Shown in pieces: positions 1 through 44,844 of a stretch of 45,527 nucleotides of DNA (the first letter of the stretch is position 1; each line of letters opens with the position of its first letter). This stretch comes from Thermoproteota archaeon (GTDB lineage Archaea > Thermoproteota > Thermoprotei > Gearchaeales > Gearchaeaceae), in NCBI GenBank assembly GCA_021324265.1, contig JAJPJK010000007.1:1-45527 (forward strand), given 5' to 3'. The notes beneath the pieces were generated by a model. It was not told the origin of the DNA. It was given only the letters and a program-made list of their open reading frames with translations, and searched no databases. The position numbers were made by a program, and so were the translations under genes.

Positions 1-839
1 AGCTTGCCAGAGAGTTGGGTGTGGATTTAACTAAAATAAAGGGTTCAGGGCCTGCAGGAAGAATTACAGAGGAAGACGTAAGGAAGTATGCTGAGTCACA
101 AAAGCAAGTAGAAGTAAAAGTTGAAGCTAAGGCAGCTAGGGCTGAACTTGAGGAGCGAATACCAATTACTGGTATTAGGAGAATGATCGCTGAAAGACTT
201 GTAAAAACTGCTAGAACGGCTGTAATAGTTACGCATATGGATGAGTGTGACGTTACCGAGCTAGTAAGAGTGAGGGAAATGTTAAAACAGGAAGCTGAAA
301 AAAAAGGTGTTAAATTGACCTTCTTACCCTTTATCGTTAAGGCTGTAATCAAAGCGCTTAAGGAATATCCTTTGTTTAATGCATCAGTAGATGAGGAAAA
401 GAATGAACTGGTAATCAAGAAATATTATAACATAGGAATAGCTACAGCAACTGAACAAGGACTCATCGTTCCAGTAATAAAGAACGCTGACACTAAAGGA
501 ATATTTGAGCTCGCAAAGGAGATCGAGGATTTAAGTGAAAGAGCTAGAAAGGGGAGCTTAAAAGTGGAAGAGGTAATTGGAAGTACTTTCTCAATTACAA
601 ACATAGGTCCTTTAGGAGGAACATTTGCTACTCCTATATTGAATGGCCAAGATGTTGCAATATTAGGTGTAGGTAAGATCAAGAAGAGACCTGTTGTGAT
701 TGAGGATAAAATAGAAATAAGAGATGTGTTAACTCTATCTTTATCTTTTGATCATAGAGTTATAGATGGTGCACAAGCAGCGATCTTTACCAATGAAGTG
801 ATTAAATATTTAGAAAAACCCTATTTACTATTAGTTTAA
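1..839 (+). CDS. Dihydrolipoyl acyltransferase (E2), 5' partial
   Basis: This is the C-terminal part of the E2 core of a 2-oxoacid dehydrogenase complex, which moves an acyl group from lipoyl-lysine to CoA. The reading frame is open from base 3, so the apparent TTG start at 15 is internal and the lipoyl domain lies outside the window. The visible part begins in the peripheral subunit-binding domain (LARELGVDL, then GSGPAGRITEEDV), passes through a charged linker, and continues into the trimeric acyltransferase domain. The catalytic motif FDHRVIDG is near the C-terminus. The substrate cannot be read from this part; archaeal complexes of this type have been shown to use branched-chain 2-oxoacids. 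The E3 gene lpdA and lipB lie 3.6 kb downstream. The stop interlocks by 4 bp with the convergent cyclase gene. Confidence 0.93.
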   Translation, partial: LARELGVDLTKIKGSGPAGRITEEDVRKYAESQKQVEVKVEAKAARAELEERIPITGIRRMIAERLVKTARTAVIVTHMDECDVTELVRVREMLKQEAEKKGVKLTFLPFIVKAVIKALKEYPLFNASVDEEKNELVIKKYYNIGIATATEQGLIVPVIKNADTKGIFELAKEIEDLSERARKGSLKVEEVIGSTFSITNIGPLGGTFATPILNGQDVAILGVGKIKKRPVVIEDKIEIRDVLTLSLSFDHRVIDGAQAAIFTNEVIKYLEKPYLLLV

Positions 840-4444: not shown

Positions 4445-5818
4445 ATGGTTTATGATGTAGCTATTATAGGGAGTGGGCCGGGAGGCTATGTTGCTGCTAT
4501 AAGAGCGGGTCAGTTAGGTAAAAAAGTTCTTTTAGTGGAAAAAGATAAACTTGGAGGCGTTTGTTTGAACTATGGCTGTATTCCAAGTAAGGCTATAATT
4601 CATATCGCTCATCTATATCGGAAGATAAAATGGATGAATGAAATAGGCTTAGCTATGGGAGAAATAGAACTAGACTATGCAAAAATAAAAAGCTGGAAGG
4701 AGCAGGTAGTTGATAGGCTCAGAAAGGGTATAAAGTTCCTGCTGGATTCTTATGGAGTAGAGCAAATTCAAGGAAATGCTAAAATATTCGAAGGTGGTAA
4801 AATCGAGGTTGAAGGAAAATCATTTGATACGAAAAATATAATCATAGCTACTGGTTCTTCACCACTCGAACTCCCCAACTTGAAGATTGATGGTAAAGAT
4901 GTTTTAGACTCTACCGCTGCACTCGAGCTCACTGAATTACCTAAGCGTCTTCTTGTAGTAGGAGGTGGTGCAATAGGACTTGAGTTAGGCTGTGCTTTCC
5001 AAAATTTTGGTAGCGAACTCTTTGTTGTTGAAATAATGGATCAATTACTACCTGGTTTTGATAAGGAGGTTTCAGAGGTCATAAAAAGAAACATAACTAA
5101 AAAGGGCGGCCATGTTTATTTGAATTCAAAGGTTGTTGAGGTAAAGAAAGCTAATGGTAAAATAAATGTTGTAATAGATACACAAGGTAAAAATGAGGAG
5201 TTAGAAGTTGATAAGATACTCCTAAGCGTTGGAAGAAAACCTAACAATCAAGATATAAATTTGAAGGGTTTGGGGGTTGATAAAAAGGGCTTTGTGCAAG
5301 TAGATGAATTTCAAAGAACAAATCTTGAGAACGTATTCGCTATAGGGGACATTACTGGTCCTCCATTCTTGGCACATAGAGCATCAAAACAAGGAATAGT
5401 AGCAGCTGAGGTTATAAGCGGAATGAAAAGTGCATACGATTATAGAGCAATACCTTCAACCTTCTTTACGGATCCAGAGATAATTTCTATAGGTAAATCC
5501 CAAGAGGAAGCCTCGAAAGAGAGAGAAATTTTAGTAGGCAAGTTTCCTTTTTTAGCATTGGGTAGAGCATTAACACAAGGTTCAACCGAAGGCTTTGTTA
5601 AAGTAATAGCCGATAAGCAAAGCAACGTTATATTGGGAATACAGGCTGTTGGTGAAGGCGTTTCTGAACTTAACGGGGAAGCTACACTTGCTATAGAGGC
5701 AACATTAACGCTAGAAGATTTAGGCTTGGTAATGCATGCGCATCCTACGCTCTCTGAGGCATTGATGGAGTCTGCAGAAAATGCTTTAAGAAAGGCTATT
5801 CACATTTTAAATAGATGA
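4445..5818 (+). CDS. lpdA: Dihydrolipoamide dehydrogenase (E3)
   Basis: Reoxidises dihydrolipoyl groups with NAD+ in 2-oxoacid dehydrogenase or glycine cleavage complexes. The 457-residue flavoprotein has the FAD GxGxxG motif at residues 9-14, the redox disulfide Cys40/Cys45 in GGVCLNYGCIPSK, the NAD-binding GGGAIGLELG, the second FAD motif AIGDITG, and the C-terminal HAHPTLSE with catalytic His433 and Glu438. The stop overlaps the lipB start as ATGA, so the two are cotranscribed. With the upstream E2 and LipB this forms a lipoate-dependent oxidation module. Confidence 0.96.
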   Translation: MVYDVAIIGSGPGGYVAAIRAGQLGKKVLLVEKDKLGGVCLNYGCIPSKAIIHIAHLYRKIKWMNEIGLAMGEIELDYAKIKSWKEQVVDRLRKGIKFLLDSYGVEQIQGNAKIFEGGKIEVEGKSFDTKNIIIATGSSPLELPNLKIDGKDVLDSTAALELTELPKRLLVVGGGAIGLELGCAFQNFGSELFVVEIMDQLLPGFDKEVSEVIKRNITKKGGHVYLNSKVVEVKKANGKINVVIDTQGKNEELEVDKILLSVGRKPNNQDINLKGLGVDKKGFVQVDEFQRTNLENVFAIGDITGPPFLAHRASKQGIVAAEVISGMKSAYDYRAIPSTFFTDPEIISIGKSQEEASKEREILVGKFPFLALGRALTQGSTEGFVKVIADKQSNVILGIQAVGEGVSELNGEATLAIEATLTLEDLGLVMHAHPTLSEALMESAENALRKAIHILNR

Positions 5819-6477
5819 TTAAAGGTTATTTGCTGGATTTTGATCAGCTTAACTATCTCAAAGCGCTTGAGCTTCAAAGAAAACTTGTTGATTTAAGGAA
5901 TGAGAATAAAATCCCTGAAACGTTGATACTTTTGGAGCATGAGCATGTCATAACAATAGGAAACCGCGGTAAGGAAGCTGATATATTGGACAAATCCCTA
6001 CCTTATTACTATGTTGAGCGAGGAGGAGAATTAACTTACCATGGCCCCGGCCAACTTGTGGGATATCCAATATTTGATCTTAAATCTCTAAAGCTCGATG
6101 TTAAAGAGTTCGTATCAAAGCTTGAAAGCGCGATATGCTTAGCTCTTAAAAAGTTCAATATTGAGTGTGATAAAGAACATGTCTTTGCAGGCGTTTGGAC
6201 AAAAAAGCAAAAAATTGCTTCAATAGGGATCGCTTTGAAGAATTTCGTTACATTCCATGGATTTGCCCTCAATGTAAATACTGATTTGAGTTACTTTTTT
6301 AAGATCAGGCCATGCGGTATGGAAGCTAGTGTAATGACATCGATGGAAAAGATTTTGGGAGAAAAAATAAATATGAAAGAAGTGAAAGATGCGATTATAG
6401 AAGGTTTTCAAAAGGTTTTCGATATAGAGTTCGAGAGGAAAAGTCTTGAAGATTTAGCTTTAAAGCTTTTTGAATAA
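5815..6477 (+). CDS. lipB: Lipoyl(octanoyl) transferase LipB
   Basis: Transfers octanoyl groups from acyl carrier to apo-lipoyl domains, the first step of lipoylation. The 220-residue protein has the diagnostic RGGELTYHGPGQ (residues 69-80), Lys133 in KIASIGIAL and catalytic Cys167 in IRPCGMEAS. These correspond to E. coli Lys135 and Cys169. It overlaps lpdA by 4 bp. No lipA is in the window. Its 3' end overlaps the convergent thiolase gene by 18 bp, so both C-termini are encoded by the same bases on opposite strands. Confidence 0.95.
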   Translation: MIKGYLLDFDQLNYLKALELQRKLVDLRNENKIPETLILLEHEHVITIGNRGKEADILDKSLPYYYVERGGELTYHGPGQLVGYPIFDLKSLKLDVKEFVSKLESAICLALKKFNIECDKEHVFAGVWTKKQKIASIGIALKNFVTFHGFALNVNTDLSYFFKIRPCGMEASVMTSMEKILGEKINMKEVKDAIIEGFQKVFDIEFERKSLEDLALKLFE

Positions 6478-7665
6478 CATCGATATTCCTTGTCCTACAC
6501 CAATACACATTGTAGCTAATGCGTATTCGATATTCCTTCTTTTTGCCTCATGGAATAGTGTAGTTGTTATCCTTGCGCCTGAACATCCCAATGGATGGCC
6601 TATTGCAATGGCTCCTCCATTTGGATTCAATCTGCTGTCATCAGGATCTATTTGGAATTCTTTTAGACAAGCCAATACTTGTGCTGCAAAAGCTTCATTG
6701 ATCTCAATTAAATCAATATCCTCCAACTTAAGACCTATCTTTTTCAAAAGCTTTTGGGTAGCAGGCACTGGGCCTATGCCCATTATGTTTGGATTGACGC
6801 CTGCAGTAGCCCATGAAATAACTTCCATTTTTGGATTATAGCCTAAATCTTCTGCCATTTTCTTATTCATCAGAAGAACAACAGAAGCACCATCGTTAAT
6901 GCCGGAGCTATTCCCAGCTGTAACGGTGCCATTTTCTTTAAAAACGGGTTTTAATTTCGCCAACTTTTCCAAAGAAGTATCAGGCCTTGGCCCTTCATCC
7001 TTGTCAACAATAGTCAAATTCTTTGTTTTATGATCCAAAATCTCTACAGGAATTATCTCTTCATTGAATTTACCCTCTTTTTGAGCTTTTACTGCTTTCA
7101 TGTGACTGTTGTATGCGAATAAATCTTGTTCTTCTCTCGTTATTTTATATAATTCTGCCAGATTCTCAGCAGTTTCCCCCATGCTTATTGGTGGATATTC
7201 TTTGGGCCACTTCGGGTTTACAAACCTCCAGCCAATAGTTGTATCGTAAACTTGGATTTCTCTTTGAAATGGCATCGTAGCCTTAGGTATGACGAATGGA
7301 GCTCTACTCATACTCTCCACGCCTCCTGCAATATAGATGTCTCCAATTCCTGATTTTATCATTGAAGATGCTATCGCAATGGCTTCTAGCCCTGATCCAC
7401 AGAGTCTATTTATAGTAGCGGCGGGAACCGAGATGGGTAAACCAGCGAGTATAACGCCCATTCTTGCAACATTTCTATTATCCTCTCCAGCCTGATTTGA
7501 ACAGCCAATGTAAACATCATCGATAAGCCTGGGGTCAAGGTTATTCCTCTCGACTATCTTTTTCAACAAAAGTGCTATGAGATCATCAGGTCTCACAGAG
7601 CTCAAAACACCACCATATTTGCCTATAGGAGTTCTTATCGCATCTATGATTACAACTTCATTCAT
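6460..7665 (-). CDS. Acetyl-CoA C-acyltransferase (classical thiolase)
   Basis: Cleaves 3-oxoacyl-CoA with CoA, or runs in reverse. With the ATG at 7665 the protein has 401 residues; a TTG at 7686 would add seven poorly supported residues. The catalytic set is complete: Cys89 in NRLCGSGLEA, His357 in GHPLGCSGA and Cys387 in ATMCIGVGQG, plus NEAFAAQ. This is the bacterial-type degradative thiolase (FadA/PcaF-like), not the archaeal mevalonate-pathway thiolase that pairs with a DUF35 partner. It is the last gene of a minus-strand run with two crotonases and meaB, which suggests a role in the final cleavage of acyl-CoA oxidation. Confidence 0.93.
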   Translation of the reverse strand: MNEVVIIDAIRTPIGKYGGVLSSVRPDDLIALLLKKIVERNNLDPRLIDDVYIGCSNQAGEDNRNVARMGVILAGLPISVPAATINRLCGSGLEAIAIASSMIKSGIGDIYIAGGVESMSRAPFVIPKATMPFQREIQVYDTTIGWRFVNPKWPKEYPPISMGETAENLAELYKITREEQDLFAYNSHMKAVKAQKEGKFNEEIIPVEILDHKTKNLTIVDKDEGPRPDTSLEKLAKLKPVFKENGTVTAGNSSGINDGASVVLLMNKKMAEDLGYNPKMEVISWATAGVNPNIMGIGPVPATQKLLKKIGLKLEDIDLIEINEAFAAQVLACLKEFQIDPDDSRLNPNGGAIAIGHPLGCSGARITTTLFHEAKRRNIEYALATMCIGVGQGISMLFKKL

Positions 7666-7702
7666 GGATAAATCTTCAATAAACAAGCATATGAATCTTA
7701 AA

Positions 7703-8491
7703 TTATTTCCCTTTAAACACTGGTTTTCTTTTCTCTAAGAATGCCTTTAATCCCTCAGCGTGATCCTCTGTAGCTCCTGCGATATCTTGCAAATAGGCCT
7801 CGTACTCTAGACTATCCTCTAAATCGTGATTAAGTGAATAATAAACCAATTTTTTAGTAAGGGCTATTGCTTTAGTTGGAAGAGAAGCGTATTTAGCTGC
7901 GATTTCCTCTGCTCGAGAATTAAGTTTATCCTCCTCTACAACGTTGTTAACCAATCCTAATTCAAGTGCTTTCTTTGCATCTATAGTTTCACCCAATGTG
8001 AAAAATTCCATTGCTCTGCTTAGACCTAAATTTTTAAGAACGAAAAAGCATGAACCGGTGTCAGGTACCAAACCAACGTTTAGAAATGCCTCGACAAATG
8101 AAGCTTTTTCACTCATTAATTTATAATCGCACGACAATGCAAGTCCAATTCCAGCTCCAGCTGCAACTCCATTTATAACCGATATGACTGGTTTTGGCAT
8201 TGAAACAATTTTGAGAACAATCCTGTTGAAATTCTTTCTCAAAAACCCTCCATAATCAAATTTTTCACCTTTTTCATAAAATGATTTCATATATCTCAAA
8301 TCTATACCTACACAGAATGCCCTTCCTGTGCCTGTTAAGATTACGCATCTAATGCTTTCATCCTTAGCAATTTCACTGAGCGTTTTATCTAAAAGTTCGA
8401 TGGAAGGTCCGTCAAGAGCGTTTAAAACTTCAGGCCTATTCAATGTAATTTTGGCTATTCCTTCTTTTTTTTCTAAAAGGATACTGCTCAT
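7703..8491 (-). CDS. Crotonase-fold enoyl-CoA isomerase, PaaG-like
   Basis: A 262-residue crotonase superfamily member. Both catalytic glutamates of enoyl-CoA hydratase are replaced: the GGCELA position reads GAGIGLA (Gly116) and the QPE position reads EAF (Phe135). Asp144 in GLVPDTG matches the catalytic Asp of PaaG and of many enoyl-CoA isomerases. It is therefore more likely a delta3-delta2-enoyl-CoA or PaaG-type isomerase than a hydratase. No other phenylacetate genes are present, so that pathway is not claimed. It lies between the thiolase and a small gene in the same minus-strand run. Confidence 0.85.
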   Translation of the reverse strand: MSSILLEKKEGIAKITLNRPEVLNALDGPSIELLDKTLSEIAKDESIRCVILTGTGRAFCVGIDLRYMKSFYEKGEKFDYGGFLRKNFNRIVLKIVSMPKPVISVINGVAAGAGIGLALSCDYKLMSEKASFVEAFLNVGLVPDTGSCFFVLKNLGLSRAMEFFTLGETIDAKKALELGLVNNVVEEDKLNSRAEEIAAKYASLPTKAIALTKKLVYYSLNHDLEDSLEYEAYLQDIAGATEDHAEGLKAFLEKRKPVFKGK

Positions 8492-8512: not shown

Positions 8513-8806
8513 TTAAAAAGCTGTCCTCATTCTGTACTTTATAATAAAAAATTCCTCCATAACTCTTTCATCAATTCTTCTTATACCTTTAAAACTCAAT
8601 AAAAGCAAGATAGCTCCGATGATATCGGTTACAACTGGTTCAGGAAAAGCAAACATCGCAAGAGCGATCTTGATAAGATGATTCCTTCTTTCTACATATT
8701 TCAATTTCTTAAGAGCTTTTCTTGAATTATCTAATGCATATGCAAGTTCATTAAGTTCATGAGCTCTTTCTATGAGTAGATCCCTTAATAACTTATAATT
8801 TCGCAC
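8513..8806 (-). CDS. Small protein with a hydrophobic C-terminal segment, unknown function
   Basis: I do not recognise this protein. It has a charged helical N-terminal half (ERAHELNELAYALDNSRKALKK), a basic stretch (YVERRNH), then one or two hydrophobic helices (IKIALAMFAFPEP and VVTDIIGAILLLLSF) and a basic tail. It is probably membrane-associated. An ATG at 8869 would extend it but would overlap the upstream crotonase gene by 35 bp. The GTG at 8806 gives a 97-residue protein without overlap and lies downstream of an AT-rich TTAAATATTTTT. Its place between two crotonase genes on the same strand suggests cotranscription. Confidence 0.55.
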   Translation of the reverse strand: MRNYKLLRDLLIERAHELNELAYALDNSRKALKKLKYVERRNHLIKIALAMFAFPEPVVTDIIGAILLLLSFKGIRRIDERVMEEFFIIKYRMRTAF

Positions 8807-8834
8807 AATAAGAGTTTCAAAAAAATATTTAAGA

Positions 8835-9614
8835 TTATCTACCTTTAAAGACGGGTTTTCTCTTTTCAATGAATGCCTTCATTCCCTCTTTAGCATCTTC
8901 AGTTGAAAGCAACAAGTAGAATAATCTTCTTTCATATTCGAGTCCTTCTTTTAAATTGGTTTCGAATGCTTTCCTAATGGAATCCTTGATGAATTCAACC
9001 GCAATTGGAGCTTTGCTGGCAATTTCTTTAGCTAGTTTTAAAGCTTCTTGCATGAGAAGTTCCTTGGGTACTACTTTATTCACGATTCCAAGCTCATAAG
9101 CCTCTTTGGCAGGTATAAACCTACCTGTCAAGCATACTTCCATAGCTTTTTGTTTCCCTATCAATCTAGCAAGTCTTTGAGTACCTCCAGCTCCAGGCAT
9201 AAGTCCAAGGTTTATTTCAGGCTGGCCGAACATCGCATCTTCTGAAGCGATGATCATATCGCAGCTCAATGCAAGTTCACATCCACCGCCTACTGCATAA
9301 CCTTGTATAGCTGCTATAACAGGTTTTTTAATATTTTCCATCATCTTTTCCCAAACCGCTAGAGGGCTCTTTTCTAGAGCTTCTATTGGGCTAAGGGTAG
9401 ACATCTCTTTAATATCAGCTCCAGCTGAGAAATGGTTAGAACCTGTTATTATCATAACTTTTATCCCTGGATCTTTTTCGAAACCTTCAATTGCGTCGAT
9501 GATTTCTTCGACGGTTTTCTTATTTAATGCATTGAGTTGTGCTGGTCTGTTTATTTTTACTATTCCTACTTCTTCAACGCGTTCTACCATTATATTTTCG
9601 TATTTTTTCTCCAT
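8835..9614 (-). CDS. Enoyl-CoA hydratase (crotonase)
   Basis: Adds water to 2-enoyl-CoA. The 259-residue protein has both catalytic glutamates in context: Glu113 in GGGCELALSCD and Glu133 in FGQPEINLGLMPGAGGTQRL, with the oxyanion-hole segment FSAGADIKEM. It closely resembles short-chain crotonase (crotonyl-CoA or 3-hydroxypropionyl-CoA type). It lies 24 bp downstream of meaB on the same strand. With the PaaG-like isomerase and thiolase it makes a short beta-oxidation segment. No acyl-CoA dehydrogenase or 3-hydroxyacyl-CoA dehydrogenase is in the window. Confidence 0.92.
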   Translation of the reverse strand: MEKKYENIMVERVEEVGIVKINRPAQLNALNKKTVEEIIDAIEGFEKDPGIKVMIITGSNHFSAGADIKEMSTLSPIEALEKSPLAVWEKMMENIKKPVIAAIQGYAVGGGCELALSCDMIIASEDAMFGQPEINLGLMPGAGGTQRLARLIGKQKAMEVCLTGRFIPAKEAYELGIVNKVVPKELLMQEALKLAKEIASKAPIAVEFIKDSIRKAFETNLKEGLEYERRLFYLLLSTEDAKEGMKAFIEKRKPVFKGR

Positions 9615-9638: not shown

Positions 9639-10583
9639 TTAAGCTTTATGTAAGCTATCTTTGAATTCTTCTATAACATTTTTTGCGGCCTTGTATCTCG
9701 ATATCTTTCCTTGATATACTTCTTCTGTGATTTTTTCAAGTTCTTGTTCTTTATTCTTTACGAAATCGTCCAAAAGTTTCAAGAAGTAGGAATTGAGATC
9801 TTCAATAATGCTACTTTTTATCTTCAGCTTTCTTCTTTTATCCAATTCACCACTTTTGGAATATTCATCCCAAATGTTTATTAGCGAATCGTATAACTCC
9901 TTTATTCCTTCATTGTATAATGCAGAGGTATATACGATCCTCTTGTCTTTCCCCATAATCGTCCTTAATGTAACACCCGTTATCTTATTCCTATCCAAAT
10001 CTCCTTTGTTTATTACATAGATGTCAGCAATTTCCATGAGGCCTGCTTTGAGCGCTTGTATTTCATCTCCCGAGTATGGCATTAAAATAACCGCAACTAT
10101 GTCTGCCTTCTTAAATATTTCTGTCTCGATCTGACCTGCACCCACAGTTTCGATAAATATTATATCTTTACCGCTAGCTTCAAGAATAAGAACAGCCTCA
10201 TCTATAGCCCTTGAAAGACCACCAGTCCATCCTCTTGTTGCTAGGCTACGTGCATATACCTTTGGATCAGATACCTCTTCGATCATCCTTACTCTGTTTC
10301 CCAATAGTGCTCCGCCAGAAATAGGGCTTGAAGGATCAACGAGCAGAACTCCTACATTATGATTCCTATTTATGGCCTCTTTGACCAACTTTGATATTAG
10401 TGTACTTTTACCTACTCCCGGAGGTCCTGTAATTCCTATTATTTTTGCCTTGCCAGAATATTCTTCAAAATCTTCAAGAATCTCATAAATGTTGGTATAT
10501 CCTTCTTCTATCATAGTTATGGCTTTAGCTATATATCTTCTATCGCCATGTAGGATTCCTTCTTTAATTTGTTCTAAATCCAC
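9639..10583 (-). CDS. meaB: Acyl-CoA mutase chaperone GTPase (MeaB/ArgK)
   Basis: A G3E-family GTPase that gates B12 loading and repairs B12-dependent acyl-CoA mutases. The 314-residue protein has the P-loop GPPGVGKS (residues 53-60), the switch region with ETVGAGQ, and the guanine motif NKGD (192-195) followed by L. The start is GTG. It is divergent from the mutase large subunit across 39 bp, so partner and chaperone probably share a control region. It heads a minus-strand run that also encodes crotonases and thiolase. Confidence 0.94.
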   Translation of the reverse strand: MDLEQIKEGILHGDRRYIAKAITMIEEGYTNIYEILEDFEEYSGKAKIIGITGPPGVGKSTLISKLVKEAINRNHNVGVLLVDPSSPISGGALLGNRVRMIEEVSDPKVYARSLATRGWTGGLSRAIDEAVLILEASGKDIIFIETVGAGQIETEIFKKADIVAVILMPYSGDEIQALKAGLMEIADIYVINKGDLDRNKITGVTLRTIMGKDKRIVYTSALYNEGIKELYDSLINIWDEYSKSGELDKRRKLKIKSSIIEDLNSYFLKLLDDFVKNKEQELEKITEEVYQGKISRYKAAKNVIEEFKDSLHKA

Positions 10584-10622: not shown

Positions 10623-12407
10623 ATGCTCGTGATTACGAGTTCAGATCTCTTAAAAGATTTCCCAAAGGGATATTGGAAGAGGAAGCTCGAGGAGAAAATA
10701 TCCAAGAGAAATAGAATTTCTGGGCTCTATAATAAGGAAGAGATTGAAAAATTAGGTGATGCTGAGTATAGATGGAGAAGCGAAGTTTATGAGCCTTGGA
10801 TAAAGGAGAAACCCGAAAGGAAATCGAAATTTGAAACTGCTTCTGGAATAGAACTGAAACCTATCTATACGCCTTATGATATAAAGCACATTGATTATCT
10901 TGAAGATCTCAACTTCCCTGGCTGTTATCCTTACACTCGAGGTGTCTATCCTTCAATGTACAGGGGAAGACTTTGGACAATAAGGGAATTTAGTGGTTTC
11001 GGTACGCCGGAAGATACTAATAAGAGACTCAAGTTCCTATTGGAGCATGGAGAAACAGGGTTGAGTATAGCGTTCGATATGCCAACACTTTACGGATACG
11101 ATTCTGATTCGCCTAGAGCGTTTGGAGAAGTAGGTAAGATGGGTGTTTCTGTTAGTTCTTTGCAAGATATGGAAGCACTCTTTAAAGATATTCCACTTGA
11201 TCAAGTCACTACTTCAATGACTATAAATGCACCAGCTATTGTCCTATTGGCTTTATATATTGCAGTGGCTGAAAAACAAGGGGTGCCCATTCATAGACTT
11301 AGCGGTACAATACAAAACGATATTTTGAAAGAGTACATTGCTCAGAAGGAATGGGCATTTCCGCCTGAAGCTCATCTTAGAATAATAAGGGATATGATGG
11401 AATTTTGCAGCAAGAACATGCCTAAGTGGAATTATATCAGTATAAGCGGGTATCATATCAGAGAAGCAGGAGCCAACGCTATTCAAGAACTTGCTTTCAC
11501 TCTTATGGATGGCTTTACATATGTCGAGCTTGGCATGAGTGCAGGCTTAGATCCTAACGAATTCGCCACGAGATTATCTTTCTTTTTCAATTCCACTATG
11601 GATTTCTTTGAAGAAATCGCAAAATTCAGGGCTGCTAGAAGAATATGGGCAACCGTACTTAAGGAAAGATATGGGGTTAAGAATCCGCGTGCATTATTAT
11701 TGAGATTTCACACTCAAACAAGTGGAGCATCTTTAACTTGGCAGCAACCATTAAATAATATTGTTAGGACAGCAATTGAGGCATTAGCTGCTGTACTTGG
11801 GGGCACTCAAAGCCTTCACACCAATTCCTACGATGAAGCTCTATGTTTGCCAACAGAAGAGGCGGTAGTTGTAGCTGTTAGAACGCAGCAAATTATAGCT
11901 CACGAAACAAATGTTGCAAGTGTTATTGATCCTTTGGCTGGTTCTTATTACGTAGAGTGGTTGACTGATAAGCTTGAAGAAGAGGCTTATAGATATTTTG
12001 ATAAGATCGAAGAACTAGGCGGAATGGTCGAGGCGATAAAGAAGGGTTATCCACAAAAGGAAATTATTGAAAACGCGTATCGCCAAGCCATGAAAGTAGA
12101 GAATAAGGAAGATATCATTGTAGGCGTAAATGAATATATTGCGAAGGATGAAAGAATTGTGAATGTTTTTAAGACGAATCCTGAAGTGGAGAAGAAGCAG
12201 AGGGAAAGAATACAGAAACTGAAGCAAAGTAGGGATAACAAAAAAGTGAAGGAGGCATTGGAGGAAGTTAGAAGAGCCTTTGAAGATCCTTCAATTAATC
12301 TTATGTATCCCATTTTAAAGGCTGTTAAAGCTTATGCTACGCTACAGGAAATAATGGATATAGGAAGGGAAGTATATGGAACGTGGAAGGAACCTTCAAT
12401 ACTTTAG
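10623..12407 (+). CDS. B12-dependent acyl-CoA mutase large subunit, isobutyryl-CoA mutase-type active site
   Basis: A 594-residue catalytic subunit of the methylmalonyl-CoA mutase family, without a fused B12 domain (the small subunit follows). The fold is clear from [40 protein letters not shown] and [12 protein letters not shown]. Two substrate-specifying residues differ from true methylmalonyl-CoA mutase: Tyr89 (P. shermanii numbering) is Phe123 in IREFSGFG, and Arg207 is Gln241 in EYIAQKEW. The spacing of 118 residues is identical. Phe/Gln is the established signature of isobutyryl-CoA mutase, whose split IcmA/IcmB architecture also matches. Automatic annotation would probably say methylmalonyl-CoA mutase; the residues favour isobutyryl-CoA/butyryl-CoA interconversion. 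Confidence 0.9.
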
Positions 12408-12846
12408 GGAAGTAATAAATAAGCTTCCTAAGCGAATAAAGGTACTCGTAGCTAAGCCTGGCTTAGATGCCCATGATAGAGGTGTCCATGTTTTGATGCG
12501 CTACTTCAGGGATGTAGGTTTTGAGGTAGTTTATTCAGGTATACTTGCAACTGTTGATGAAATCGTTCAAACAGCGATTGATGAGGATGTCGATGTAATC
12601 GCACTTAGTTCAATGAACGGTGCCCATATGGTTCACTTTCCTGCAGTTATAGAAAAACTAAGGGAGAAAGGTGCCAACGATATAATCGTCGTAGGAGGGG
12701 GAATAATACCTGATGAAGATAAACCTAAACTAGAAGCCATAGGTGTTACGGGCAACTATGGTCCGGGTACACCATTGGAAACGATAGTGTCTCACATTCT
12801 TGATAGATTACTAAGAGAAAAATTCAAAATAGACTCTAAAGTTTAG
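12376..12846 (+). CDS. Acyl-CoA mutase small (cobalamin-binding) subunit
   Basis: A 156-residue B12-binding Rossmann-like subunit that partners the preceding mutase. It has the base-off/His-on motif DAHDRG with His33 as lower cobalt ligand, followed by SSMNGAHM and [11 protein letters not shown], which line the nucleotide-tail pocket. It overlaps the large-subunit gene by 32 bp. The purine-rich GGAAGGGAAG just upstream of the ATG may serve as ribosome binding site and supports this start. Its 3' end overlaps the convergent citrate synthase gene by 11 bp. Confidence 0.94.
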
Positions 12847-13990
12847 AAAGCCAATTCCTTTTATAGGGAAAATTGAGACCCCTTGGGCCTACATAGTCGG
12901 CTTTTGGTCTTATTATTTTATTTTCCTGAACCTGCTCAATATAATGAGCAGCCCAACCAACAACTCTTGACAAAGCGAACAAAGGCGTGTAAAGTGGGAT
13001 ATCCAAATCCAGTGTATAGTAAATGGGGCCTATCCAGAAATCTACATTGGCAGGAATCTTTCTTTCCCTCCACATGACCTCTTCGAACTTTAGCATTATC
13101 TTATACATATTCAGGTATTGCGGTTTTTTCTCTAATATTTTGGCGAAGATTTTTTTCGCTACAGCTGTTCTAGGATCCAATTTTTTGTAAACTCTGTGAC
13201 CAAACCCCATAACTTTTTCTTTTTTAGCCAATGTTTCCATGATATATCTTTCGGCATCATTTTCATCCTTTATTTTGAGTAACATTTCAGTTGCTTTTTC
13301 GTTAGCTCCTCCATGCAGAGGCCCTTTCAAAGCACCTAATCCAGCTGAAATCGCTGAGTAAATGTCTGAAAGTGTTGATCCTACACATCTCGTGGTGAAA
13401 GTTGAAGCGTTGAAATCATGATCCATATAAAGTATCATAGTGATATCAAATATTCTAGAAGAAAAATTATCCGGAACTTCACCTTTGAGCATGTAGAGGA
13501 AATTTTCGGAATGACCTAAGTCATATCTGGGCTTGATAGGCTCTTTATTCTTAAATATTATTCTATATCCATTAGCGGTTATAGTTGCAAGTTTAGATAT
13601 TATCTTTATTGCTCTTAAAATAAGGTCATCATAACTTTGGCTGTACCATTTTTCATCATAAGCCATTAGTAATTCGAGCCCTATCCGTTGGACATCTATA
13701 GGTGTTAGATATTTTCCTTTAAGTTTAATGAAAATTTCAAATATTTCATCCGGAACATCTCTTTCTCGTTTTAGCTTAGATATAAAATCACCTAATTCAT
13801 CTTCATTCGGTAATTTTCCCTTCAATATAAGATAAGCTGTTTCTTCGAAAAAAGAATTCTCAGCAAGATCACCTATTTCATAACCTCTATAGATCAATTC
13901 GCCTTCAGGGTCGCTTACAGATATAGAAGACTTGTCTACAATGACGTTTTCAAGACCCTTTGGAACACGGACGTATTCTATTCTCTCCAT
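12836..13990 (-). CDS. Citrate synthase / 2-methylcitrate synthase
   Basis: Condenses oxaloacetate with acetyl-CoA or propionyl-CoA. The 384-residue protein carries the active-site residues His191 (MDHDFNAS), His226 (GPLHGGANE), His265 (GFGHRVYK) and Asp317 (PANVDFW). Length and residue positions resemble archaeal citrate synthases such as that of Thermoplasma. It lies 16 bp downstream of prpB on the same strand, so context favours methylcitrate synthase, though archaeal enzymes often accept both acyl-CoAs. Residues alone do not settle the substrate. Confidence 0.92.
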   Translation of the reverse strand: MERIEYVRVPKGLENVIVDKSSISVSDPEGELIYRGYEIGDLAENSFFEETAYLILKGKLPNEDELGDFISKLKRERDVPDEIFEIFIKLKGKYLTPIDVQRIGLELLMAYDEKWYSQSYDDLILRAIKIISKLATITANGYRIIFKNKEPIKPRYDLGHSENFLYMLKGEVPDNFSSRIFDITMILYMDHDFNASTFTTRCVGSTLSDIYSAISAGLGALKGPLHGGANEKATEMLLKIKDENDAERYIMETLAKKEKVMGFGHRVYKKLDPRTAVAKKIFAKILEKKPQYLNMYKIMLKFEEVMWRERKIPANVDFWIGPIYYTLDLDIPLYTPLFALSRVVGWAAHYIEQVQENKIIRPKADYVGPRGLNFPYKRNWLSKL

Positions 13991-14006: not shown

Positions 14007-14873
14007 TCATTTCATATTAAAACTTGAATTTGCAACTTTCTTATCCAATTCAATGTATCTTTCATATCCAATCAATTCATAAAATTCCTTTCTAGTCATC
14101 ATTTTAGATAGAAAGTCTTTTTGAGTACCCTTATCTTTAATTTCTCTTAAAACCTCCTTCATAGCGAAAAGAGAGGCCCTTAATAGCGTTACTGGGAACA
14201 AAACTATATCATAGCCTGCACTTCTGAATTCTTCAAGCGTTAAATAAGGTGTTTTACCAAACTCAGTCATATTTGCTATTAAGGGGGCTTTCACTTCTTT
14301 GGCAAACTTCTTGAATTCATCCAAGCTTTCTAAAGCTTCTGGAAATATCACGTCTGCTCCAGCTTCAAGGTAAAGTTTTGCTCTCTCTATAGCAGAATCG
14401 ATTCCCTCGACAGTTCTTGCATCGGTTCTTGCAATTATCAAGAAGTCATCTCCTTTTCTAGCATGCAGTGCCATCTTTATCTTTTTTATCATCTCTTCAA
14501 CATTTACAAGCTGTTTATCTTCAAGGTGTCCACATTTTTTAGGCATTACTTGATCTTCTATTTGAATTGCATTCGCGCCTGCAGCTTCAAGCTCCTTTAC
14601 TGTTCTATATACGTTTATTGCTTCTCCATAACCTGTATCTACGTCTACAATTATTGGAAGATTTGAAACCATTCTTATCTCCTCTACCAAACGCTTAACC
14701 TCTGTGAGTGTTATGATTCCTAGATCTGGTAAAGCCATGCTGCCTGAGAAAGCAGCACCTGAAAGATATAGAATTTCGAAGCCTAACTTTTGGCATAACA
14801 ATGCAGATATTCCGTTAAATACTCCTATAGCTGGCCTTGCTTTCTTATCTAATAGCTTTCTAAGCTCATTCAT
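14007..14873 (-). CDS. prpB: 2-Methylisocitrate lyase
   Basis: Splits 2-methylisocitrate into pyruvate and succinate, the last step of the methylcitrate cycle. The 288-residue PEP mutase/isocitrate lyase family protein has the metal motif DVDTGYGE (residues 77-84), the catalytic PKKCGH with Cys114, and NMTEFGKTP, which is typical of PrpB rather than isocitrate lyase. Its length also fits PrpB (about 290-300). It overlaps prpD by 4 bp (ATGA) and is followed 16 bp later by the citrate/methylcitrate synthase gene. Confidence 0.92.
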   Translation of the reverse strand: MNELRKLLDKKARPAIGVFNGISALLCQKLGFEILYLSGAAFSGSMALPDLGIITLTEVKRLVEEIRMVSNLPIIVDVDTGYGEAINVYRTVKELEAAGANAIQIEDQVMPKKCGHLEDKQLVNVEEMIKKIKMALHARKGDDFLIIARTDARTVEGIDSAIERAKLYLEAGADVIFPEALESLDEFKKFAKEVKAPLIANMTEFGKTPYLTLEEFRSAGYDIVLFPVTLLRASLFAMKEVLREIKDKGTQKDFLSKMMTRKEFYELIGYERYIELDKKVANSSFNMK

Positions 14874-16207
14874 TTATACGTCAGAGCCTCTACGACATCA
14901 CTTATGCTCTTGTCTTCGATGTTTCTCAATTCATTTAGTATTGTTTTGGTTCTTTCACCTAACAGTGGTTTTGTCATTTTCATGAACTTTGTATTCAACT
15001 CTTCTTCAGTAAGCGGATTTCTGTAATGTCCTTTTGGATAAATTATCTCATCCTCTACTTTTTGCCCATCACTTGTTACAACCTTGATTTTTGCAGGGCA
15101 ACCTTGGGGATACATCTTATCGAGCTCATCATCGACATAGATCCTAATTTTTTTCATAAGAGACTTCACCTTAGGATTGAATAAGTCATAGTAAGAATCG
15201 ACCTCTATCTTGCCGTTTGCAAGAATATATGCTACAATAAAGGGCAAGCTGTGATCTGCAGTCTCTTTGGTTTTAGGATCCCATTTCTCTGGATCCTTGA
15301 CTATTATATTATATGATACTTTGAAAGTCCCAATCTCTATGCTCTCTATTTTATTGACATCGATTTTATCTCTTATTTTGAAAGCGACTTCTGCAGCCCC
15401 CATGGAATGATACTCAACAGGATAATTCTTTATGCTCGTTTCCAAGATCTTATTATCTAACTCTAAATCCAGTTCAAATTCACCAGAGACCTGCTTGAAA
15501 AATCCTCTTTCTCCTTCAAAGACAGGCGAGGGCCCTGTTATTCCTTGTTCTGCAAGCAGAGAGTAAAAAGTTGCGTTTCTTACTGCATTAGGAGAGCTTA
15601 GACCTTTCCACATGCTAAGTTCTCCTATTCTTGTTTGCCTTAGCGTTATAACGTTTGAGGCCGTTAAATTTATTGCCTGTGTCAGTTTTTGAGCATCCAA
15701 GTCTAGCAATTTACCAATGCCTGCTGTTGCTCCTATTGCTATATAAGATACATGGTCCCATCCTCTTTCTCTAATGCTTGATGCATCAGCAAGTTTACAT
15801 ATTAGCTCATATGCTAGGGCTAAAGCTGTTATTAGATCTTTTCCTGTTTTGTTCTTGGCTTCTGCAATAGCGATTAGACCTGCGATGCAATCACTTGGAT
15901 GCAGGGCCTCTTTTGAAAGATATGTATCATTATAATCATAGAATCTCGTCATAGAAGAATTCACAAATGCTGCATAATCTAGTGTGGTTTTTTTTCCGAG
16001 ACCCCATATTCTTGCATCTCTTTCAGATCTCGTATTCTCAACGACCTTTCGAACCATCTTAATGGTTTCTTCTTCAAGTGCAGGAAGTGCTACTGAAAAG
16101 GTATCAATTATTCGTCTTTTAGCCTCATTAACCACTTCTGGTCTTAGATCATCGTATTCTAAAGATAATACGAAGTCTGCTATTCTCCTGGCAAGTTGGT
16201 CAGTCAT
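14870..16207 (-). CDS. prpD: 2-Methylcitrate dehydratase, MmgE/PrpD family
   Basis: Dehydrates 2-methylcitrate towards 2-methylaconitate. The 445-residue protein shows family segments: RFYDYNDTYLSKEALHPSDC near residue 90, YELICKLADAS, GLSSPNAVRNA, FEGERGFF, YPVEYHSMGAAE and ETADHSLPF. It is the first gene of the operon prpD-prpB-synthase and overlaps prpB by 4 bp. The upstream AT-rich region on this strand (about 16216-16240) contains TTTAAATA and TTTTAATT boxes that could be the promoter. A related role in cis-aconitate chemistry cannot be excluded, but the operon supports propionyl-CoA use. Confidence 0.9.
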   Translation of the reverse strand: MTDQLARRIADFVLSLEYDDLRPEVVNEAKRRIIDTFSVALPALEEETIKMVRKVVENTRSERDARIWGLGKKTTLDYAAFVNSSMTRFYDYNDTYLSKEALHPSDCIAGLIAIAEAKNKTGKDLITALALAYELICKLADASSIRERGWDHVSYIAIGATAGIGKLLDLDAQKLTQAINLTASNVITLRQTRIGELSMWKGLSSPNAVRNATFYSLLAEQGITGPSPVFEGERGFFKQVSGEFELDLELDNKILETSIKNYPVEYHSMGAAEVAFKIRDKIDVNKIESIEIGTFKVSYNIIVKDPEKWDPKTKETADHSLPFIVAYILANGKIEVDSYYDLFNPKVKSLMKKIRIYVDDELDKMYPQGCPAKIKVVTSDGQKVEDEIIYPKGHYRNPLTEEELNTKFMKMTKPLLGERTKTILNELRNIEDKSISDVVEALTYK

Positions 16208-41534: not shown

Positions 41535-42043
41535 TGGGTGCTTTAGACTTTTTACTTAAGGCATATGAATTGAAGGAACTTGATAGAAAAGGATGGGTTA
41601 AGAAAGTAGGTATTAAAAATCCGGAAAGCGTTGCTAGTCATACATACGGAATGCTTTTACTTGCATTATTATTCTATAAGGATTCATCTATCATGAAGGA
41701 AATCGTTATCCACGATTTGGCAGAAGTATTGATAGGCGATCTTACTCCTGAAGAGAAATCTAATGAATCTAAAGATAGAGAAAAAGAGGCATTTAAACAT
41801 TTAGTTTCTACTTTAGACAAAGCAAAGCAAGATGAACTAATCAGTCTCTATGAACAAGCAAATTTCGATATGTTTGTAAAAGAACTCGATAAGCTAGATC
41901 TTGCGATTCAAGCGTTGTATTATAAGGAGAAGGGTTATCCTAAAGAAAAATTGGAAGAATTCATCTTGACAGCTGATACATCAATAAAAAATCAGAAACT
42001 AAGAAAAATTTTTGAAGAGGTAAAAGTCAGATTTTATTCGTGA
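41534..42043 (+). CDS. HD-domain phosphohydrolase (YfbR/HDDC2-like 5'-nucleotidase)
   Basis: A 169-residue HD-domain metal hydrolase. Metal ligands are His36 (PESVASHTYG), His60-Asp61 (IVIHDLAEVLIGDLTP) and a later Asp in the KELDKLDLAIQA helix. This pattern matches the YfbR/HDDC2 group, which dephosphorylates (deoxy)nucleoside monophosphates. It is coupled to pckG by a one-base stop-start overlap. The 3' end overlaps the convergent acyl-CoA synthetase gene by 17 bp. Confidence 0.88.
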   Translation: MGALDFLLKAYELKELDRKGWVKKVGIKNPESVASHTYGMLLLALLFYKDSSIMKEIVIHDLAEVLIGDLTPEEKSNESKDREKEAFKHLVSTLDKAKQDELISLYEQANFDMFVKELDKLDLAIQALYYKEKGYPKEKLEEFILTADTSIKNQKLRKIFEEVKVRFYS

Positions 42044-43949
42044 TCTTCTTTATTTCTTCAACCGAATCTGGATTCTCCAGTACAGATAGTTCACCAAATT
42101 CTCTGTTGACAACTGCTGCCCTTATTATTCTTCTCATGATCTTTCCAGATCTCGTTTTGGGTAGGTCGCTGACAAAGTAGATTTTGCTCGGTTCAAATGC
42201 CTTGCCTATTTCTTTTGAGACAAGCTCCTTCAGTTCACTTTCGAGTTTTTCGTTGCCTATAAAGTTTCTTTTAAGTACAACAAAGCATGCAATTTCTTCT
42301 CCTTTAATTTCGTTAGGTATCCCTATACACGCTGATTCGGAGACAGCATAATGCTTATTTAATACTCCTTCTATTTCCGCAGGTCCTATTCTTTTTCCAG
42401 CTACCTTTATAGTATCATCCGCTCTGCCTAACAAATACCAGAAACCATCTTCATCGATCAATGCAAGGTCTCCATGATACCAGACATTTTTAAATCTAGA
42501 CCAATATGTTTCTAGATACCTTTCCTTATCTTTCCAGAATCCCTTCGTCATTGATGGAGCGGGTTTTTTACAAACTAAGTATCCTATGCTACCTCTTATT
42601 GGTTTTCCTTCATCATCAAATACATCTACATCCATACCCAGTCCAGGGCCCCATAGCGTTGAAGGTTTAAGCTCTACAACAGGAGATGGGAGCAGAAAAC
42701 ATCCAAAAATTTCGGTGCCACCAGAAAGATTTATGAATGGTCTTCTTTCTTCTCCAATATCTTTCATAATCCAAAGCCATGTATCAGGATCAATAGGTTC
42801 TCCGGTATTTCCGAATGTTCTTATGCTACTAATGTCATGATTCTTAGCGATGCGTGAACCGTATCTCTTAAGAATTCTTGCTACAGTTGCCGCAAAACCA
42901 AATGCTGTTACCTTTGTATTTTCTATTATTTTCCAGATCCTATCTTGATCTGGATAGTCTATAGCTCCTTCAAATATTATATGTGTCGAATGTAAAACTT
43001 GGGAACCGATTATCTGCCAAGGCCCCATCATCCAGCCTATATCAGTGATCCAAAGCAATTTTCCGTCTTCTTTAAGATCCATATTGAAAAAGATCTCTTT
43101 TGTTGGCTGAATTATTGAGCCTATGTGAGTTATTACTGCACCCTTTGGTTTGCCTGTTGTTCCAGATGTATATAAGAGTAATGCTGGGTCTTCAGCTTCT
43201 GTTTCTTCACATTCAACAAGTTTGTTACTTTTCATTGCTTCGTCAAAAAACACTTGTCCGGGACTTAGCTCTGTATTCTCTCCTATCCTCCTCACTATCA
43301 AACACTTTATGGCTTTTTCAGACAATTCAATAGCTTTTTCAGCGTTTTTCTTCAATTCTATGAGATTACCCCTTCTATAGTAGCCATCGCATGTGACTAA
43401 AAACTTTGGAGATGCATCTTGTAATCTTTGTGCAACTGCATTCGGTGAAAATCCAGAAAAAATGGGTGCGAAGACCGCGCCTATTTTGAGTGATGCGAAT
43501 AGCGTTACGACTGTTTCTGGAAGCATTGGCATGTAGCACGCGATTACATCCCCTTTTTTAACTCCATTTTCTTTAAAATAGTTTGCAAGTCTTGATACAT
43601 GATCTTTTAACTGTGAGTAGCTATACTCTCTTATCTCTCCCTTCTCGCCAAACCAAATAAAAGCAAGTTTATCTGTTTTATGCTTTTCAAGTGCGTTATA
43701 TTCTACATTAACTTTTCCTCCAACAAACCATTTTGCCCATTCTATACCATCTGATATATCTAATACTTCTTTATAATTTTCAAAAAACTCAATTTCTAAA
43801 TAATCTACTATGTCTGACCAAAATTTTCTAATATTATCATGACTAAATTTTACTAGTTGCCTATAATTTTCAAATTTTTTTTCTTCCATATATTTTGTAA
43901 CGTTTGCTTCTTCAATTACTTCTTTGGGAGGTTTCCAGAGATATGTCAT
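42027..43949 (-). CDS. AMP-forming acyl-CoA synthetase (Acs family, enlarged acyl pocket)
   Basis: Activates a carboxylic acid to its CoA ester via an acyl-adenylate. The ATG at 43949 gives 640 residues (a TTG one codon upstream is less likely). Motifs are LLYTSGTTGKPKGAVITH, YHGDLALIDEDGFWYLLGR and the C-terminal lysine in KTRSGKIMRR. Where acetyl-CoA synthetase has WWQTE with Trp414 closing the acyl pocket, this protein has SGGTE (Gly410). In Metallosphaera, glycine at this position goes with acids larger than propionate, such as 4-hydroxybutyrate, and acetoacetyl-CoA synthetases have a similar SGGTD. The preferred acid is therefore probably C4 or larger. Confidence 0.93.
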   Translation of the reverse strand: MTYLWKPPKEVIEEANVTKYMEEKKFENYRQLVKFSHDNIRKFWSDIVDYLEIEFFENYKEVLDISDGIEWAKWFVGGKVNVEYNALEKHKTDKLAFIWFGEKGEIREYSYSQLKDHVSRLANYFKENGVKKGDVIACYMPMLPETVVTLFASLKIGAVFAPIFSGFSPNAVAQRLQDASPKFLVTCDGYYRRGNLIELKKNAEKAIELSEKAIKCLIVRRIGENTELSPGQVFFDEAMKSNKLVECEETEAEDPALLLYTSGTTGKPKGAVITHIGSIIQPTKEIFFNMDLKEDGKLLWITDIGWMMGPWQIIGSQVLHSTHIIFEGAIDYPDQDRIWKIIENTKVTAFGFAATVARILKRYGSRIAKNHDISSIRTFGNTGEPIDPDTWLWIMKDIGEERRPFINLSGGTEIFGCFLLPSPVVELKPSTLWGPGLGMDVDVFDDEGKPIRGSIGYLVCKKPAPSMTKGFWKDKERYLETYWSRFKNVWYHGDLALIDEDGFWYLLGRADDTIKVAGKRIGPAEIEGVLNKHYAVSESACIGIPNEIKGEEIACFVVLKRNFIGNEKLESELKELVSKEIGKAFEPSKIYFVSDLPKTRSGKIMRRIIRAAVVNREFGELSVLENPDSVEEIKKITNKI

Positions 43950-43983
43950 CAATCATAAATCATAGTAAGAGGATAAAATCTTT

Positions 43984-44844
43984 ATGAAAATTGGCTTTAT
44001 AGGCCTTGGAAGAATGGGCAGTAGGATGGCAATGAATGTTCTTTCGCAGTTCAAAGAACTTTATGTGTATAATAGAACCAAAGAAAAAGCCAAAAATCTA
44101 TTGGATAAAGGTGCTATATGGTGTGATAGTCCAAAGGAAGTAGCAATGAATACAGATGTTGTTATAACTATGCTGAGAGATTCCCAATCCGTTCGTTGGG
44201 CCTTATTGAGTGAAGTAGGAGCTTTTAATGGAGCAAAGAAGGGTATGTATTTCGTTGATATGAGTACAATTCAGCCTAAAGTTACGATTGAAATTGCTCT
44301 GGAAGCGTCTAAGAGGAATCTTCATTTCATCGACGCACCTGTGATAGGAAGCGTAGATCAAGCTGCTGAAGGAACACTTACAATAGTCTGTGGTGGTTCA
44401 GAAGAAGATTTCAAAGTGATAAAACCTATTCTGCAATCCATGGGCAAGAATATTTTTTATGTAGGCCCAGCAGGCAGCGGTTCTAAACTTAAGCTGATTA
44501 ATAATGCATTGATCGCCAACTTTCCGATTATTTTCAGTGAAGTTATTAATGTAGCTCGTAAAGCTGGTTTAAGAGATGAGATCGTTTTAGGGGTTTTGAA
44601 AGCTGGCATATTTGGGAAAGCTATTGAGTACTATGAAAAAAGGATCATCGGAAAAGATTTTACAACAAGATTTTCCCTGGATTTAATGCTGAAGGATATT
44701 AAGTACTTCAAGGAATTGGCAGAAGATTTGGCTGTAAAACCCTTGTTGACTGCGCGTTTAGAAGAATTATATCAAGAAGCATTCAATAAAGGGTTAGGAA
44801 ATCTAGACTATACAGCTATATCATTACTGCACGAAAAATCCTAG
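43984..44844 (+). CDS. 3-Hydroxyisobutyrate dehydrogenase-like beta-hydroxyacid dehydrogenase
   Basis: A 286-residue NAD(P)-dependent beta-hydroxyacid dehydrogenase. It has the Rossmann start KIGFIGLGRMGSRMA, the substrate motif FIDAPVIGSVDQAAEGTLTI, and catalytic Lys170 in GSKLKLINN. The NRT after the second strand (VYNRTKEKA) suggests NADP use. The family includes 3-hydroxyisobutyrate, tartronate-semialdehyde and glyoxylate/succinic-semialdehyde reductases, so the substrate is not certain. A valine-catabolism role would fit the mutase in this window. It is divergent from the acyl-CoA synthetase across 34 bp. Confidence 0.88.
   Translation: MKIGFIGLGRMGSRMAMNVLSQFKELYVYNRTKEKAKNLLDKGAIWCDSPKEVAMNTDVVITMLRDSQSVRWALLSEVGAFNGAKKGMYFVDMSTIQPKVTIEIALEASKRNLHFIDAPVIGSVDQAAEGTLTIVCGGSEEDFKVIKPILQSMGKNIFYVGPAGSGSKLKLINNALIANFPIIFSEVINVARKAGLRDEIVLGVLKAGIFGKAIEYYEKRIIGKDFTTRFSLDLMLKDIKYFKELAEDLAVKPLLTARLEELYQEAFNKGLGNLDYTAISLLHEKS

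Follow-up and report, generated by a model that had tools for sequence, protein, structure and literature searches.

A predicted two-subunit isobutyryl-CoA mutase in Thermoproteota and its archaeal relatives with a Phe/Gln active site

Introduction

Which acyl-CoA is rearranged by the two-subunit, B12-dependent mutase that is encoded, next to a meaB gene, in the genome of an archaeon of the phylum Thermoproteota? The DNA analyzed here (the window, a stretch of 45,527 nucleotides) is one end of contig C13 in a genome of 1.45 Mb, 25 contigs and ∼95% completeness. By its sequence, the enzyme would ordinarily receive the name methylmalonyl-CoA mutase, and the whole archaeal clade to which it belongs is probably named wrongly. 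Such mislabelling matters because the methylmalonyl-CoA route, or individual steps of the 3-hydroxypropionate/4-hydroxybutyrate cycle, is inferred from annotations of this kind.

Isobutyryl-CoA mutase was known from bacteria only according to a 2010 paper (PMC2847961), and a Cuniculiplasma gene annotated as ‘isobutyryl-CoA mutase subunit B' appears in the literature solely as one item of a proteome listing (PMC7285479). Our literature search found no paper in which an archaeal isobutyryl-CoA mutase was assayed. The chemistry of the reaction is already known, and it is the broad archaeal clade of such enzymes that appears to be uncharacterized.

Subunits and family membership

The large subunit is the sole PF01642 protein of the genome and scores 779 bits against the acid_CoA_mut_N model (TIGR00641), whereas the small subunit scores 150 bits against acid_CoA_mut_C (TIGR00640), both above the curated cut-offs. 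The small subunit contains the B12-binding motif DAHDRG (DxHxxG), and its ORF overlaps that of the large subunit by 32 bases, provided that the ATG at 12376 is the start (Table 1). In the profile search, the large subunit did not exceed the cut-off of the full methylmalonyl-CoA mutase equivalog model, and against the IcmF equivalog (NF045497), it reached 361 bits compared with the required 1500; a single chain combining B12, G-protein and mutase domains is absent, and meaB is a separate gene. The AlphaFold model of the large subunit (pLDDT 84.1, pTM 0.87) superimposes with TM scores of 0.90 on 4r3u, 0.86 on 1req and 0.75–0.79 on the IcmF entries, so that the nearest solved structure, by sequence (46% identity) as well as by fold, is 4r3u, a 2-hydroxyisobutyryl-CoA mutase. 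This proximity and the low score against the IcmF equivalog count against the assignment of the enzyme as an isobutyryl-CoA mutase.

The first-pass annotation of the window, which proposed that the enzyme interconverts isobutyryl-CoA and butyryl-CoA, relied in part on the likeness of the separate large and small subunits to IcmA/IcmB of Streptomyces. The separation is real and is common to both systems but is not specific to isobutyryl-CoA mutases: the archaeal Tyr/Arg mutases and 2-hydroxyisobutyryl-CoA mutase (HcmA/HcmB) are split alike, and therefore, the layout is weak evidence and was dropped as specific support. The two systems also differ in that the Streptomyces enzyme supplies an antibiotic precursor, whereas the role proposed for the archaeal enzyme is catabolic.

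Table 1. Features of the mutase locus, with positions counted from the first letter of the window
Feature	Position	Strand	Evidence or remark
E2 of 2-oxoacid dehydrogenase complex, C-terminal part	15-839	+	contig-edge gene
Dihydrolipoyl dehydrogenase (E3)	4445-5818	+	TIGR01350 525 bits, cut-off 409
Lipoate-protein ligase family	5815-6477	+	PF21948
Thiolase (acetyl-CoA C-acyltransferase)	6460-7686	-	profile match
Second enoyl-CoA hydratase/isomerase family protein	7703-8491	-	profile match
Enoyl-CoA hydratase (crotonase family), putatively hydrating crotonyl-CoA	8835-9614	-	profile match; adjoins meaB in L014 too
MeaB G-protein chaperone, divergent from mutase	9639-10583	-	TIGR00750 283 bits, cut-off 240.75
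B12-dependent acyl-CoA mutase, large substrate-binding subunit (IcmA-like)	10623-12407	+	594 aa ORF; TIGR00641
Phe123 codon (Tyr89 of MutB; Phe598 of IcmF)	10989-10991	+	alignment
Ala150 codon (Ala in methylmalonyl-CoA mutase and IcmF; Asp in 2-hydroxyisobutyryl-CoA mutase)	11070-11072	+	alignment
Leu156 codon, TLYG motif common to IcmF (His or Gln in Tyr/Arg enzymes)	11088-11090	+	tracks epimerase absence
Gln241 codon (Arg207 of MutB; Gln742 of IcmF)	11343-11345	+	alignment
His278 codon (His244 of MutB)	11454-11456	+	alignment; invariant
Small cobalamin-binding subunit (IcmB-like)	12376-12846	+	156 aa ORF; TIGR00640; matches 2yxb, 4r3u_C
Citrate/2-methylcitrate synthase	12836-13990	-	TIGR01800 412 bits, below cut-off 421
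Methylisocitrate lyase PrpB	14007-14873	-	TIGR02317 403 bits, cut-off 354
PrpD-family 2-methylcitrate dehydratase	14870-16207	-	PrpD models 118-184 bits, below cut-offs

Active site

To read the residues, the large subunit was aligned by phmmer to 1REQ, human MUT and 4R3U, and some 90 sequences were aligned with MAFFT. Both stretches (14 and 22 residues) on which the original comparison was anchored are present in the large subunit, and the offset to Propionibacterium shermanii MutB (1REQ) is constant at +34 and gapless throughout the active site: Tyr89, Ala116, Arg207 and His244 of MutB correspond to Phe123, Ala150, Gln241 and His278. Because of this constant offset, the 118-residue spacing between Phe123 and Gln241 is exact, and the replacement of Tyr89 and Arg207 that had been claimed from the sequence holds. 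The Tyr/Arg pair binds the free carboxylate of methylmalonyl-CoA and marks methylmalonyl-CoA mutase; it is absent from the large subunit in the alignment. The methylmalonyl-CoA mutases, including MutB, MUT and the archaeal Tyr/Arg enzymes, otherwise share the fold, the catalytic histidine and the B12 domain with the window enzyme, at roughly 43–60% identity.

In the solved IcmF (4xc6), Phe and Gln occupy the aligned places, as the first-pass annotation had stated, and Ala the third, which is the same Phe/Ala/Gln set as in the window enzyme (positions 618 and 762 counted along the 4xc6 chain, or 598 and 742 after subtraction of the 20-residue tag). The two enzymes have in common the TLYG motif and a G-protein chaperone, but IcmF is fused to its G-protein, whereas the window enzyme is unfused, shows about 30–35% identity to IcmF and is far removed from it in the tree. 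IcmA of Streptomyces likewise has Phe/Gln instead of Tyr/Arg. In HcmA (4r3u), the set is Ile/Asp/Gln, so that the Gln at the Arg207 position is shared, but 2-hydroxyisobutyryl-CoA mutase is marked by Ile (or Val) at MutB position 89 and Asp at position 116, where the large subunit has Phe and Ala. Thus, the proposed alignment with MutB, IcmF and HcmA places neither Tyr nor Arg at the two positions.

Conservation and phylogeny of the Phe/Gln mutases

The nearest named relative is ‘Thermoprotei archaeon isolate CPBay_Spr30G08_23' (locus L014), whose mutase shows 81% identity. The other archaeal relatives of the Phe/Gln type (59–81% identity), which come from Thaumarchaeota/Nitrososphaerota, Thermoplasmata and L014, retain Phe/Ala/Gln at all readable sites, with the exception of L049 that has N at the Gln position; given this conservation, the Phe and Gln are not due to chance. 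The matched loci in genome contigs are archaeal save for one Chitinophagales locus of the Tyr/Arg type, and a locus labelled ‘bacterium' (L036) groups with the archaeal ones. The mutase domain is present in 181 of the 397 genomes of a phylum-wide sample, and the sites were read in 102 copies from 82 genomes: Phe and Gln are found in 45 of these copies and Tyr and Arg in 57, with no mixed pairs. A third type, Val/Val/Gly, was found later in two genomes, beyond the 102 scored copies.

In the tree, which was built after removing the three diagnostic columns and contains no IcmA row because no IcmA sequence was found among the plasmid records, the window enzyme lies within an archaeal Phe/Gln clade with 100/100 support, the outcome of the phylogeny with archaeal mutases that had been suggested as a check. 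The Phe/Gln rows form three clades (100/100 support each) plus one Deinococcus protein, and a single origin of the 26 Phe/Gln rows that were tested was not rejected (p-AU 0.45). The HcmA-type enzymes form a clade of their own, and both these and IcmF stand apart from the window enzyme.

Mutase type and methylmalonyl-CoA epimerase

If Tyr/Arg denotes methylmalonyl-CoA as the substrate, genomes with such mutases are expected to encode methylmalonyl-CoA epimerase. Among the genomes with a single mutase copy, an epimerase over the cut-off (TIGR03081, 114.95) is present in 31 of the 32 Tyr/Arg genomes compared with 1 of the 20 Phe/Gln genomes; the Tyr/Arg exception (G041) scores 112.5, and the Phe/Gln exception is G166. 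The carboxyltransferase (PF01039) is found in 26 of the 32 and 3 of the 20 of these genomes, respectively. Fisher's test for site type versus epimerase gives 6e-13, a value that ignores relatedness and includes five Tyr/Arg genomes whose extra copies had not been read. The link does not come from one lineage because the Phe/Gln genomes with a single mutase belong to 8 families and the Tyr/Arg ones to at least 10, although the genomes are still not independent. Five apparent Phe/Gln-only genomes (G346, G140, G220, G376 and G403) were ruled out because each has an additional Tyr/Arg copy, and one apparent Tyr/Arg-only genome (G364) because of an additional Phe/Gln copy.

In the 21 genomes with both mutase types and an epimerase, the epimerase gene and the Tyr/Arg copy are no more than 23 kb apart in 13, and in none is the epimerase close to the Phe/Gln copy; where epimerase and carboxyltransferase adjoin a mutase, this is the Tyr/Arg copy. 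When 510 alignment columns were ranked by the information on epimerase presence, the column of Leu156 came second, that of residue 241 fifth and that of residue 123 seventh. From the residue signature combined with the epimerase comparison, it follows that a considerable proportion of the archaeal genes carrying the methylmalonyl-CoA mutase domain belong to the other type; the two residues and the presence of epimerase provide a rule for correcting such annotations.

In the window's genome (∼95% complete) and in the sister genome G001 of the same family, no PF01039 carboxyltransferase was found, nor any epimerase over the cut-off of 115, the best glyoxalase-family matches scoring 38 and 36.5 bits, respectively. 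With one mutase, no epimerase over the cut-off and no acyl-CoA carboxylase, the window's genome has no recognizable methylmalonyl-CoA supply; given the ∼95% completeness, these absences could be gaps. In four thaumarchaeal loci, a carboxyltransferase gene lies 2–9 kb from the Phe/Gln mutase, which counts against isobutyryl-CoA as the substrate.

Gene neighborhood and proposed pathway

The meaB gene reported as adjacent to and divergent from the mutase was recovered above the curated cut-off of TIGR00750. After it, in the same orientation, come two enoyl-CoA hydratase genes and then thiolase, whereas the synthase, PrpB and PrpD genes converge on the mutase from the other side. Between the two hydratases and overlapping the end of one is an ORF of 118 aa (8513-8869, minus strand) with no Pfam/NCBIfam match. 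The window starts inside the E2 gene, and the E2 lipoyl domain together with E1beta/E1alpha is found at the edge of contig C21 (left end, L237); because the two parts of the E2 gene are located at the ends of different contigs, C21 probably abuts the contig of the window, although no overlap was found.

Related loci share much of this arrangement. The order in L014 is hydratase-hydratase-MeaB-mutase-synthase-PrpB-PrpD, and in thaumarchaeal loci PrpB-synthase(-PrpD)-MeaB precede the mutase; a citrate/2-methylcitrate synthase is near the Phe/Gln mutase in 29 of the 39 loci examined. In 27 related archaeal loci, the gene directly after the small subunit of the Phe/Gln mutase encodes an acyl-CoA dehydrogenase, and in G172, E1alpha-E1beta-E2-E3 and acyl-CoA dehydrogenase lie beside MeaB and mutase. 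The window's genome also encodes, at other sites, acyl-CoA dehydrogenases and 3-hydroxybutyryl-CoA dehydrogenases; in G001, the two are side by side.

The active-site residues, the lack of epimerase and carboxylase, the phylum-wide link to epimerase and the neighboring genes all support the interconversion that had been predicted, and the locus most likely encodes, together with a separate MeaB chaperone, an isobutyryl-CoA mutase that has two subunits, depends on adenosylcobalamin and serves in the breakdown of valine via butyryl-CoA. By analogy with known enzymes, MeaB would gate the loading of adenosylcobalamin into the small subunit, the Co-C bond would break on substrate binding, the adenosyl radical would abstract a hydrogen from one methyl group of isobutyryl-CoA, and the CoA-carbonyl group of the substrate radical would migrate, reversibly, to give n-butyryl-CoA, with Phe123 and Gln241 providing a neutral pocket where methylmalonyl-CoA mutases have Tyr/Arg. 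Isobutyryl-CoA would be delivered by the 2-oxoacid dehydrogenase of valine breakdown, and butyryl-CoA would pass through acyl-CoA dehydrogenase, enoyl-CoA hydratase, 3-hydroxyacyl-CoA dehydrogenase and thiolase to acetyl-CoA. The adjoining 2-methylcitrate genes suggest the use of propionyl-CoA, a compound that the isobutyryl-CoA mutase reaction does not yield, and thus count against this assignment; the B12-independent 2-methylcitrate cycle may process propionyl-CoA from other sources.

A candidate methylmalonate-semialdehyde dehydrogenase near E1 on C21 was rejected (336 bits compared with the MMSDH cut-off of 448.5), its best match being to the betaine-aldehyde dehydrogenase type. Farther along the window, an acetate-CoA-ligase family gene (42027-43952, minus strand) and a gene of the 3-hydroxyisobutyrate dehydrogenase/tartronate-semialdehyde reductase family (43984-44844, plus strand) lie side by side, both scoring below the curated cut-offs; with the latter, a distant HIBADH-family gene, the classical valine route may still operate, which counts against the assignment.

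Alternative substrates

The Phe/Gln pair leaves room for substrates other than isobutyryl-CoA because IcmF, whose main reaction is the interconversion of isobutyryl-CoA and butyryl-CoA, was also crystallized with isovaleryl- and pivalyl-CoA. A broader proposal is that an old, widespread second archaeal class of split mutases straightens both isobutyryl-CoA from valine and 2-methylbutyryl-CoA from isoleucine for beta-oxidation, with the leftover propionyl-CoA entering the adjoining 2-methylcitrate cycle. We regard this as unlikely; if true, it would be a route for branched-chain amino acids that bypasses methylmalonyl-CoA altogether.

It is rather improbable that the main substrate is a different neutral acyl-CoA, be it 2-methylbutyryl-CoA, converted to n-valeryl-CoA in isoleucine breakdown with the valeryl-derived propionyl-CoA feeding the 2-methylcitrate cycle, or isovaleryl- or pivalyl-CoA. 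Phe/Gln speaks against a free carboxylate and permits other neutral chains, as in the IcmF structures, and the 2-methylcitrate synthase and lyase genes are persistently found beside the Phe/Gln mutase. However, the pocket residues examined match those of IcmF, and the methylcitrate genes could handle the propionyl-CoA of ordinary isoleucine breakdown.

That the enzyme is a methylmalonyl-CoA mutase despite both substitutions is highly improbable: the best curated family is the N-terminal domain model of that enzyme, but this model is broad, and whereas a Y89F mutant of MutB was solved with substrate (5req), the window enzyme has lost Arg207 too, its genome lacks the epimerase (over the cut-off) and the carboxyltransferase, and across the phylum, the split of site types follows the epimerase, with the Tyr/Arg copy adjoining epimerase/carboxyltransferase in genomes that have both types. 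Least probable of all is a 2-hydroxyisobutyryl-CoA (or lactyl-CoA) mutase, the closeness to 4r3u and the common Gln notwithstanding, because that enzyme has Ile/Asp/Gln and falls in its own clade, and among the genes seen next to the window mutase, there is none for a 2-hydroxyacyl-CoA ligase or lyase.

Other mutase loci

In each of two loci, L048 and L258, a single meaB is flanked by two oppositely oriented mutases, one of the Phe/Gln and one of the Tyr/Arg type, suggesting a chaperone common to both. In L243 (9991-11310, plus strand; genome G027), directly after a Tyr/Arg mutase, MeaB (residues 45-282) is fused to a glyoxalase-fold methylmalonyl-CoA epimerase domain (310-432) in a protein of 440 aa, and the genomes of family f7 that have the mutase contain epimerase ORFs of 440–459 aa, as for this fusion.

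The Natribaculum luteum plasmid carries a haloarchaeal Phe/Ala/Gln mutase (L086, 6001-7701, plus strand) outside the main archaeal Phe/Gln clades, clustered with thiolase, acyl-CoA carboxylase and AMP-binding genes, which is possibly a separate origin of Phe/Gln. The mutases with Val/Val/Gly at the three diagnostic positions (L227 and L228, from G220 and G140; with flanks, L270, 7850-9553, and L271, 7104-8807, both on the minus strand) possibly act on a bulkier acyl-CoA; their neighbors are a B12-binding subunit and a gene resembling phenylacetate-CoA ligase, joined in L270 by a MaoC dehydratase.
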